Below are positions 1,453 through 5,548 of a stretch of DNA of 5,548 nt, in pieces (the stretch's first letter is position 1; the number at the start of each line of letters is the position of its first letter). Source of the DNA: Candidatus Zixiibacteriota bacterium (GTDB lineage Bacteria; SM23-81); assembly GCA_030628225.1 (NCBI GenBank), contig DAOVRJ010000172.1, forward strand, positions 1 to 5,548. The letters run 5' to 3'. The position numbers and the translations under genes were made by a program. A model generated the notes under the pieces. That model saw nothing but the letters and a program-made list of their open reading frames with translations, did no database searches and had not been told where the DNA came from.

Positions 1453-2499
1453 TCACTCCGCCTTACGGATTTTCATGCGGAACTTGGCGTAGGCGCCATA
1501 CTCCAGGTACACTTTGTTCTTGTCCAGCAGGTCCCTGGTCCTCTCCGCTTTGTCCCTGGCCTCCTCGATCCGGTCGGTCACATTGAAGATGAAGCCGTCG
1601 CTGCCCGCCCCGGAACCGTAGGAGACCATCAGGACGCGATCGCCCGGCTTGGCCTCGTCCAGGATGGCGGTCAGCCCCATGGGCGAGGAGCCAGAGTAGG
1701 TGTTGCCCAGGGTGGGGCACAGCCAGCCCGTCTCGATCTGCTTGCGGTCAAACCCCAGCATCTTGCCCACCCGCATGGGGAACTTGCCGTTGGGCTGGTG
1801 GAAAACCACGTAGTCGAAATCACCGGGCTGGGCCCCGACCTTGTCCATGATCCCCCGGGCACAGCCGGTGACATGCCTAAAATAGGCTGGCTCGCCGGTG
1901 AACCGGCCAGCATGGCGGGGATAGTGCCGGTATTCCCGGCGCCAGAAATCGGGCGTGTCGGTCATGAAGGAATAGGTCTCCTCCACCTCGGCCAGCACGT
2001 GATCCATGCCGAAGATGAAGGCAGCGGCTCCGGCAGAGGCGGAGTATTCCAGCGCGTCTCCGGGGGCTCCCTGAGAGGTGTCCGCCCCCACGGCCAGGCC
2101 GTACTTGATCCGGCCGGACTCCACCAGCCCGAGGCAGACGAACATGGCTTCTGAGCCGGCCTTGCAGGCAAACTCGAAATCGGCGCAGTGCACCTCGGGA
2201 GTGGCCCCGATGGCCTCGGCCAGAACGGTGTCGCTGGGCTTGACGGCATAGGGATGGGACTCGGAGCCCACGTACACGGCGCCGATCTCCTGTGCGGGAA
2301 TGTCCGCTCTGCTCAGGGCCTTTTTGCTGGCTTCCACAGCCATGGTGATGGTGTCCTGATCCGGAGCCGGGACGGACTTCTCCTCTAACATCAAACCTCT
2401 CTTATAACTGGGGGCATCCGCTCCCCACACCTTGGCGATCTCCTCCACTTTGATGCGAAATCTGGGCATATAAGCGCCATAACCGATGATGCCTGCCAT
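1453..2499 (-). CDS. Archaeal-type hydroxymethylglutaryl-CoA synthase
   Basis: The 348-residue protein has the usual length of the archaeal-type HMG-CoA synthase family, a thiolase-fold enzyme that condenses acetyl-CoA with acetoacetyl-CoA. It opens with MAGIIGYGAYMPRFRI. The catalytic residues are in place: Glu80 in VGSESHPYAVKPS, the nucleophile Cys112 in DFEFACKAGSEAM and His234 in VFHQPNGKFP. Conserved glycine loops follow at 265-276 (GNTYSGSSPMGL) and 294-303 (YGSGAGSDGF), and the C terminus ends in a YAKFRMKIRK segment typical of the family. AGGAGG six nt before the ATG fixes the start. It lies 225 bp downstream of the double acyl-CoA synthetase on the same strand and may share its transcript. 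In archaea this enzyme usually sits beside an acetoacetyl-CoA thiolase and a DUF35 protein, neither of which is visible here. It could serve mevalonate synthesis or another acyl-CoA condensation; the family call is firm, the pathway is not. Confidence 0.9.
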   Translation of the reverse strand: MAGIIGYGAYMPRFRIKVEEIAKVWGADAPSYKRGLMLEEKSVPAPDQDTITMAVEASKKALSRADIPAQEIGAVYVGSESHPYAVKPSDTVLAEAIGATPEVHCADFEFACKAGSEAMFVCLGLVESGRIKYGLAVGADTSQGAPGDALEYSASAGAAAFIFGMDHVLAEVEETYSFMTDTPDFWRREYRHYPRHAGRFTGEPAYFRHVTGCARGIMDKVGAQPGDFDYVVFHQPNGKFPMRVGKMLGFDRKQIETGWLCPTLGNTYSGSSPMGLTAILDEAKPGDRVLMVSYGSGAGSDGFIFNVTDRIEEARDKAERTRDLLDKNKVYLEYGAYAKFRMKIRKAE

Positions 2500-2724: not shown

Positions 2725-5548
2725 TCAGGCCGTCTCCACCTCCCCCTCCTTCTCCAATCCTAACTCCTCGACAGATATTTCCCGCATCTTGAACTTCTGT
2801 ATCTTCCCGGTCACCGTCATGGGGAATTCATCCACGAATTTGACATACTTGGGGACTTTGTAGTGGGCGATCTGCTGCCGGCAGAACTCCTGGATCTCCT
2901 CCGGGGTGGCCTTCTTACCCTCCTTCAGCTTGATCCAGACAGCCACCTCCTCGCCGAATTTTCGGCTGGCAACGCCGAAGACCTGGGCGTCGCTTACCTT
3001 GGGATGGGTATACAGGAACTCCTCGATCTCCCGGGGAGAGATGTTCTCGCCCCCGCGGATGATCATATCCTTGATCCGGCCGGTGATCTTGCAATAGCCG
3101 TCCTCATCCATGGTGGCCATGTCTCCGGTATGGATCCATCTGGCCTCGTCAATGACTTTCTCCGTTGCCTCGGGGTTGTTGTAATACCCTCTCATGACCT
3201 GGTACCCCCGACAGCACAGCTCCCCCTCCTGACCCATGGGCACGATGACCCCTGTCTCCGGATTCACGATCTTCACCTCGGTATGCGGCAAGGGGGGACC
3301 CACGGTGGAGGTGCGCAGTTTGATGGAGGCATTGTAGGGAGTCTGGGTGATCACCGGAGAGGTCTCTGTCTGGCCGTAAGCGATGGTCATCTCCTTGGCG
3401 TACATCAAACTGACCACCTTTTTCATCACCTCGATGGGACAGGGCGACCCGGCCATGATGCCCGTCCTGAGGGTGCTCAGGTTGAACTTCTCGAACTCGG
3501 GGTGCTCCAGCTCGGCGATGAACATGGTGGGAACGCCATGAATGGCAGTGCATTTCTCCTTCTCCACCGCCTTGAGCGTGGCCAGGGGATCGAAATACTC
3601 GCTGGGTATCACCATGGCCGACCCGTGCGTGACGCAGGCCAAATTCCCCAGGATCATCCCGAAGCAGTGGTAGAAAGGCACGGGGATGCACAGGCGATCC
3701 TTGTGGGAGAACTTCATGGCCTCGCCGACGAAAAAGGCGTTGTTGAGGATGTTGTGGTGCGTGAGAGAGGTTCCCTTGGGCAACCCCGTGGTCCCGGAGG
3801 TGTACTGGATGTTGATTACCTCGTCGGCATCCAGGGTAAACGCCCTCTGGCTCAGCTCTTCGTCGGTCACCGACTCGCCCAGCTTCAAGAACTCCTCCCA
3901 GGTCCACATGCCGGGCTGGGCTTTCTTGCCCAGCAGGATGACGTTCTTCAGGAAGGGCAGCTTTTTAGATTTGATCTGGCCGGGCTGGGCCTTTTTTACA
4001 TCCGGGCAGACCTTGTAAAGCATGGAAACGTAATCAGACGTCTTGAATTTCTCCATGAGCACCAAGGTCTGGGTCTCGGAATCCTTCAGGCCATATTCCA
4101 GCTCGTGGCTGCGATAGGCCGGATTTACGGTGACCAGAATGGCCCCGATCATGGACGTGGAGAACTGAGCGATCACCCACTCCGGATAATTGTGTGCCCA
4201 GATGGCCACACGATCGCCCTTTTTAACGCCCAATTTCAAAAAGCTCTTGGCCGCCTGACCGCAGACGCCCAGAAATTGACGGTAGGTCAGGCGCACATCC
4301 TCCAACGGCGCCACCAGGGCCTCGCTATCCGGATATCGCTCGGTGATCTCCTTCAGCATCTCCCCGATGGTCATGCCCACAAGTTTGACCTCGGAGCCCA
4401 CATATGCATAGCTGGGTCTTCTCTTGGCCTCCTTGGCCCACTCCTTTTTCTTCAGCTCGCCGCGGCGGATCTTTCCGCTGATGGTCTTGGGCAGATCATT
4501 GACATACTCGATTATCCGCGGATATTTATACGGAGCCGTCACCTCCCGTGCGTGCTGCTGAAGCTGCTTGGTTAGCTCATCGGAGGGAGATTGACCCGAC
4601 TTGAGAACCACAAAGGCCTTGACGACCTCTCCCCGCACGGGATCGGGGCTGGCCACTACGGCCGATTCGGCCACGGCCGGGTGCTCCACAAGGGCGCTCT
4701 CCACCTCAAAGGGACCAATGCGATAGCCTGAGGAGATGATCACGTCGTCGGCACGGCCAACGAACCAGAAATAGCCATCCTCATCCCGGTAAGCCTTGTC
4801 CCCGGTGTAATACCAGTCGCCGGAGAAAACCCGGGACATCTCCTCTGGCTCTTTCCAGTATTCCTTGAACAGACCCACCGGTCGTTCTGGCTTCACTCGG
4901 ACGCCGATGCAGCCCTCCTCGTTGGGACCCAACACCTTCCCATCCTCGTCCACGATCTGTACGTCGAACCCGGGGGTCGGTTTGCCCATGGAACCAGGCC
5001 GGATGGGCAGGCAGCGGAAGTTGGCCACCAGGTTCACCGTCTCGGTCTGGCCATACCCGTCGTAGATCTTCAGGCCGGTGGCATCCTCCCACACCTTCAT
5101 CACCTCGGGGTTCAGCGGCTCCCCGGCGCTGAGACAATGACGAAGGTTGCTCAAATCGTACTTCTTCAGGTCCTCCAGAATCATCATCCGGTACCCGGTG
5201 GGCGGAGCACAGAATGTGGTGATGCCGTAGCGCTCCAGGATCCTGAGGGTCTTGGCGGAGTCGAACTTGCCCTTGCTGTTGTGATGGAAAACCGTGGCTC
5301 CCAGGGTCCACTGGCCGAACAGGCTACCCCAGGCCGCCTTGGCCCAGCCGGTGTCCGTCAGCGTCCAGTGCAGGTCCGTGGGCTTCAGATCCTGCCAGAA
5401 TGTGGCGGTGATGATATGGCCGATGGCGTATGATGCCTGGGTGTGCATGACCATCTTGGGATATGATACGGTGCCTGAGGTGAAATACAAAAGCATGGCG
5501 TCATCGCTCCTAGTCTGGGGCATCCTGGCCAGCTGAGCCGGAGCTTCG
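2725..5548 (-). CDS. Tandem fused acyl-CoA synthetase (ACSM-type + ACSF2/FadD-type), 5' end off the window
   Basis: One frame is open from the right edge to a TGA at 2725-2727. It is N-terminally truncated: in-frame codons continue upstream of the Met at 5523 and family alignment expects about 180 more residues. Residues below are counted from that Met. Half 1 (1 to ~365) is the C-terminal part of an ACSM/acetate-type synthetase: P-loop YFTSGTVSYPK (13-23), SDTGWAK-like TDTGWAKAAW (56-65), YGQTE (157-161), YYTGD (238-242), hinge GRADDVIISSGYR (256-268) and catalytic Lys351 in TISGKIRR. Half 2 (~370-932) is a complete ACSF2/FadD-type enzyme: N-terminal PSYAYVG...GMTIGEML, P-loop YTSGTTGLPKG (574-584), YGQTE (716-720), HTGD (798-801), hinge GRIKDMIIRGGE (815-826) and Lys907 in TVTGKIQKFK. 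Each half would activate a carboxylate with ATP to acyl-AMP and then acyl-CoA in the cytoplasm. Substrates are unknown. Two full synthetases in one chain is unusual, and a lost stop codon is an alternative to a long-standing fusion. Confidence 0.87.
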   Translation of the reverse strand, partial: EAPAQLARMPQTRSDDAMLLYFTSGTVSYPKMVMHTQASYAIGHIITATFWQDLKPTDLHWTLTDTGWAKAAWGSLFGQWTLGATVFHHNSKGKFDSAKTLRILERYGITTFCAPPTGYRMMILEDLKKYDLSNLRHCLSAGEPLNPEVMKVWEDATGLKIYDGYGQTETVNLVANFRCLPIRPGSMGKPTPGFDVQIVDEDGKVLGPNEEGCIGVRVKPERPVGLFKEYWKEPEEMSRVFSGDWYYTGDKAYRDEDGYFWFVGRADDVIISSGYRIGPFEVESALVEHPAVAESAVVASPDPVRGEVVKAFVVLKSGQSPSDELTKQLQQHAREVTAPYKYPRIIEYVNDLPKTISGKIRRGELKKKEWAKEAKRRPSYAYVGSEVKLVGMTIGEMLKEITERYPDSEALVAPLEDVRLTYRQFLGVCGQAAKSFLKLGVKKGDRVAIWAHNYPEWVIAQFSTSMIGAILVTVNPAYRSHELEYGLKDSETQTLVLMEKFKTSDYVSMLYKVCPDVKKAQPGQIKSKKLPFLKNVILLGKKAQPGMWTWEEFLKLGESVTDEELSQRAFTLDADEVINIQYTSGTTGLPKGTSLTHHNILNNAFFVGEAMKFSHKDRLCIPVPFYHCFGMILGNLACVTHGSAMVIPSEYFDPLATLKAVEKEKCTAIHGVPTMFIAELEHPEFEKFNLSTLRTGIMAGSPCPIEVMKKVVSLMYAKEMTIAYGQTETSPVITQTPYNASIKLRTSTVGPPLPHTEVKIVNPETGVIVPMGQEGELCCRGYQVMRGYYNNPEATEKVIDEARWIHTGDMATMDEDGYCKITGRIKDMIIRGGENISPREIEEFLYTHPKVSDAQVFGVASRKFGEEVAVWIKLKEGKKATPEEIQEFCRQQIAHYKVPKYVKFVDEFPMTVTGKIQKFKMREISVEELGLEKEGEVETA

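Follow-up and report, generated by a model that had tools for sequence, protein, structure and literature searches.

The window analysed here is the complete 5,548-base contig C172 of a draft genome (2.34 Mb, 92% complete) from an uncultured bacterium with affinity to Zixibacteria. On its minus strand, positions 2725 to 5547 form a frame of 940 open codons that continues past the contig end, which truncates the 5′ end of a fused acyl-CoA synthetase gene of 1,114 codons. This frame encodes a Macs/ACSM-type synthetase (half 1, 4426–5547, minus strand), whose first 174 residues fall outside the window, followed by a complete fatty-acid-CoA ligase of the PRK12583 type (half 2, 2728–4425, minus strand). 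The AMP-binding (PF00501) and AMP-binding_C (PF13193) domains are each found twice by Pfam (E = 3.9e-137 and 1.9e-44). Both halves belong to the ANL enzymes, as each possesses a P-loop (FTSGT in half 1, YTSGT in half 2), a YGQTE-type motif, a TGD motif, a hinge (GRADD and GRIKD, respectively) and an A10 lysine. The first-pass annotation, made from the DNA letters without database searches, had described two such motif sets in a single frame; this is confirmed, with no stop codon between the halves, and its numbering of the A10 lysines (Lys351 and Lys907, counted from Met 5523) is correct. Judged by these motifs, each half is predicted to be complete for both half-reactions.

A query with the N-terminal part of the homologous protein from Zixibacteria bacterium SM23_81 located 179 residues at the extreme end of a second contig of the same genome (C179), whose last bases share an 18-base identity with the first bases of the window in the minus-strand reading. 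The true start, MRDVKPNMTDYEK, lies on C179 and is preceded by AAAGGAG, and the joined protein comprises 1,114 residues. On its own the 18-base overlap is weak evidence for the junction but, taken together with synteny and the continuity of the protein, the evidence is good. The size of about 1,100 residues initially guessed was therefore close to that found, and Met 5523 serves only as an origin for counting. The whole gene is present on no single contig, as both fused copies, here and in SM23_81, end at contig ends. Other synthetases in the window genome gave distant matches only.

Downstream of the fused gene, on the same strand and 225 bp away, lies an archaeal-type HMG-CoA synthase gene (1453–2499, minus strand; TIGR00748, 554 bits against a cut-off of 353), which is treated here as a neighbour and not as part of the system. 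The gap between the two genes contains repeats of TTAGGGGTTAGG, with two 14-base tandem copies at 2557–2584 and an exact inverted 12-base copy at 2698–2709. Over positions 1–1400, where a GNAT acetyltransferase and a SEC-C motif protein are encoded, the G+C content drops from ~0.60 to 0.33–0.46, and this part of the window may have been inserted recently or may reflect a chimera at the contig end.

Family membership of the two halves

By its closest sequence relatives, half 1 belongs to the Macs/ACSM group. Among solved chains its best match is 3etc (439 bits), followed by 4-hydroxybutyrate-CoA ligase (413 bits) and human ACSM2A (373 bits), in agreement with the ACSM-type assignment made at first reading, and it is 72% identical over the aligned part to a Dehalococcoidia protein. 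Against the MbcS equivalog model NF047394, which has a cut-off of 850, the full-length half 1 from SM23_81 reaches 533.9 bits. Sequence comparison thus places half 1 as a relative of Macs/ACSM that resembles the MbcS group but is not MbcS itself and, because the score falls under the equivalog cut-off, its substrate can be proposed only at the level of the group. The gene for the Dehalococcoidia homologue is followed immediately, in another frame, by a different synthetase gene (locus L042, 5752–9110), so genes of the half-1 type also occur in tandem with other synthetases.

Half 2 exceeds the curated cut-off of the PRK12583 model NF009233 (853.8 bits against 832), covering positions 3–556 of 558, and is 61–63% identical to proteins from Methanothrix and Desulfurellales; the FadD/ACSF2-like character originally ascribed to it is upheld. 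The two halves share 26% identity and belong to different families, which rules out an internal duplication and bears out the earlier view that no recent one had occurred. The family of each half is established from these matches, and the substrates are predicted from family membership.

A structural prediction for the 940-residue part, made with AlphaFold from five two-domain rows, gave a mean pLDDT of 54.5 and a pTM of 0.45, values too poor to judge the docking of the halves. A MAFFT alignment with single-domain relatives was kept out of the modelling, having placed relatives of half 2 on half 1.

Conservation of the joined frame

At the joint (4393–4452, minus strand; KKKEWAKEAKRRPSYAYVGS), the end of half 1 leads straight into the N terminus of half 2, in a stop-free stretch with no ATG at the position where unfused relatives start, as seen in a codon comparison with SM23_81 and the separate gene pairs described below. 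Half 1 has about the length of its unfused relatives and half 2 opens where its unfused relatives open. Although a linker of a few charged residues had been proposed, virtually nothing stands between the halves as a linker of its own.

SM23_81, a draft bin of a different genus, was the sole further member of this family among the genomes compared. It carries a 905-codon open frame, terminated by its contig, that covers half 1 in full and the greater part of half 2. The two proteins are 88% identical over 730 shared residues and align without gaps through the joint, one uninterrupted frame being kept between the species. Across these 730 codons, dS is 0.87 and dN is 0.068 (dN/dS about 0.08), with differences at ~51% of synonymous and 6.5% of non-synonymous sites. 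By region, dN/dS is ~0.07 for the 359 codons compared in half 1 and ~0.08 for as much of half 2 as both genomes cover, against 0.11 over the 40 codons of the joint (dN 0.14, dS 1.2). Downstream of its YGQTE motif, half 2 is represented by the window only. This excess of synonymous over non-synonymous change, gapless across the joint, argues that the joined frame has been maintained as a protein in two genera, with purifying selection acting, on this codon evidence, on both halves across the compared region. The occurrence of the same frame in a second genus agrees with the original reading of a natural fusion, and on sequence grounds the fusion of the two synthetase genes is real and inherited; we infer that it yields one polypeptide in the cell. 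Had all close relatives encoded two genes with a stop between them, a local artefact would have been indicated; this does not hold for SM23_81, the sole close relative, but is the case in the more distant Desulfurellales. A query spanning the joint returned uninterrupted close matches from the window genome and SM23_81 only, among 386 genomes, and the long frames of G051, G017, G365 and G312 contained no fused homologue, showing either an intervening stop or a single synthetase.

Separate versions of the pair were read at sequence level in seven Desulfurellales-type genomes, in which the two genes are adjacent and in the same order, with only a few bases from stop to start. In two of these, G687, which we take to be Hippea maritima, and G099, the genes are divided by TAG GAG GGT GCC ATG, such that the stop overlaps the likely Shine-Dalgarno sequence. 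The second gene of the Desulfurellales pair shares 77% identity with its counterpart in a named Desulfurellales genome. A further separate pair in the same order is found in an actinomycete (G678), where TAG and 12 bases intervene. Direct descent of the fusion from the Desulfurellales pair was considered: in AU tests, the placement of the fused half 1 as sister to the Desulfurellales half 1 is rejected (p = 8e-9), and the equivalent placement of half 2 is marginal (p = 0.027). The Desulfurellales pairs are therefore not simply the pre-fusion form. Since the two versions of half 1 fail to group as a single clade, the two families came together on more than one occasion, unless an exchange of half 1 took place.

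A different fusion, FadD5-like::PRK12583, is present without a linker in three genomes (G375, G473 and G623; loci L105, L139 and L140) of the same actinomycete genus as G678. Like the gene described here, it comprises two complete synthetases with the PRK12583 type C-terminal, in frames of 1,046–1,114 codons; it differs in its N-terminal partner and in its unrelated host, and is most simply explained as an independent event. A search of open-licence papers for fused or tandem acyl-CoA synthetases found nothing relevant, which does not prove their absence from the literature.

A possible role in acid activation

The methylmalonyl-CoA route carries propionyl-CoA from odd-chain and branched acids into the TCA cycle. 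In both fused genomes the gene next upstream of the fusion is a methylmalonyl-CoA epimerase, above its cut-off. On the SM23_81 contig the upstream region encodes a carboxyltransferase, a biotin carboxylase, a biotin carrier, the large subunit of methylmalonyl-CoA mutase and the epimerase. Much of the SM23_81 order is kept on C179, which reads DegT-type aminotransferase, nitroreductase, methylmalonyl-CoA epimerase and fused gene; the oxidoreductase gene that SM23_81 carries between nitroreductase and epimerase was not seen on C179. Among characterized relatives, Macs of Methanosarcina acetivorans adenylates with propionate to octanoate (C3–C8) and branched acids, and yields 2-methylbutyryl-CoA (PMC10455477), whilst MbcS accepts 2-methylbutyrate and isobutyrate (PMC10026030). 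H. maritima can live on acetate and on saturated fatty acids, palmitate and stearate among them (PMC3156395), and Desulfurella acetivorans uses the methylmalonyl-CoA route for propionate (PMC11861179).

These observations are probably best explained by an inherited fusion producing one 1,114-residue protein with two ANL sites, which would provide broad-range acid activation for beta-oxidation. Adjacent Macs/ACSM-type and PRK12583-type genes may have lost the intervening stop and start, giving a protein with two independent active sites, each of which would form an acyl-AMP and then an acyl-CoA. The most likely substrates of half 1 would be acids that are branched or of short to medium length (propionate to octanoate, 2-methylbutyrate, isobutyrate), and those of half 2 longer fatty acids. 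The fusion would hold both parts of a broad-range activating enzyme at a fixed 1:1 dosage, presumably to the benefit of beta-oxidation, and any propionyl-CoA formed could pass through the products of the nearby methylmalonyl-CoA genes to succinyl-CoA. Since neither half is known to use the product of the other, channelling of one intermediate would not be expected. Dual-range acid activation coupled with propionyl-CoA use is the best reading because the epimerase gene adjoins the fusion in both genomes.

Double-enzyme fusions sometimes lose one site, and the polypeptide might likewise contain a single catalytic half, the other being a regulatory or scaffolding pseudo-enzyme. Half 1 does fall under every curated equivalog cut-off shown, but every core motif is intact, including both A10 lysines, and dN/dS is equally low in the two halves (~0.07–0.08 over the compared codons), which renders this improbable. 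We give equally little credence to an internal start near codon 383 that would release a free second enzyme beside the fused form. This codon could serve as a start in either genome (GTG in the window, ATG in SM23_81) and has a purine-rich stretch upstream; however, the AAGGAGG in the window lies ~27 bases from it, beyond the usual spacing, the start of the unfused relatives (ML-SYAF) here reads AGA CCC, and the in-frame ATG of the window at codon 392 is TCC in SM23_81.

It had also been suggested that a dual enzyme feeds the adjacent HMG-CoA synthase, an arrangement to which the shared strand, the position of the gene 225 bp downstream and its truly archaeal-type product might point. This suggestion is unsupported and the supply of acyl-CoA to that enzyme very unlikely: SM23_81 has the fusion but no match to the HMG-CoA synthase, and the conserved neighbour, the epimerase, is on the other side. 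In G002, a genome of the same phylum without the fusion, a 67% identical HMG-CoA synthase adjoins a thiolase instead. Matches to HMG-CoA reductase are borderline, with no NCBIfam name assigned. Finally, an assembly or sequencing error, or a strain-specific stop loss, is largely refuted and retains only a minimal probability, for although both genomes are draft bins with gene copies cut by contig ends, the nearest relative has the same fusion: with roughly half of the synonymous sites changed between the two genera, the joint is gapless in both, and the positions at which the separate genes stop and start carry neither signal in either genome.

Broad-range activation by one inherited double synthetase thus remains the favoured reading. 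The conserved double enzyme and its separate counterparts in cultured bacteria (Hippea) point to a functional link between the two acid activations. More speculatively, and in our view rather unlikely, the two active sites may influence each other, through coupled hinge motion, a shared local CoA/AMP pool or mutual inhibition, and have been selected for this repeatedly; if true, PRK12583-type synthetases, which have acquired two different fusion partners in phyla that are unrelated, would represent a recurrent fusion module. The double synthetase would offer a natural scaffold on which a broad-range enzyme could be built, and annotation with one product per gene would hide one of its two activities.

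Comparison with known systems

Acyl-CoA synthetases usually act as single proteins of ~550 residues. The closest solved relative of half 1, Macs of Methanosarcina acetivorans (PDB 3ETC), is such a single-domain enzyme, whereas here the equivalent domain is fused; the same is true of Staphylococcus aureus MbcS, the closest curated model, under whose equivalog cut-off half 1 falls. The Hippea/Desulfurellales pair (G687, G099) shares its families and gene order with the fusion, often in one frame, but encodes two proteins, has a stop within or beside a likely Shine-Dalgarno sequence and possesses a half 1 from another branch of the tree. Non-ribosomal peptide synthetases can carry two adenylation domains, and two ANL domains per chain are therefore common to both systems. 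The present protein is distinct from these, as Pfam detects neither carrier nor condensation domains in the part within the window, and both of its halves are of CoA-ligase types.
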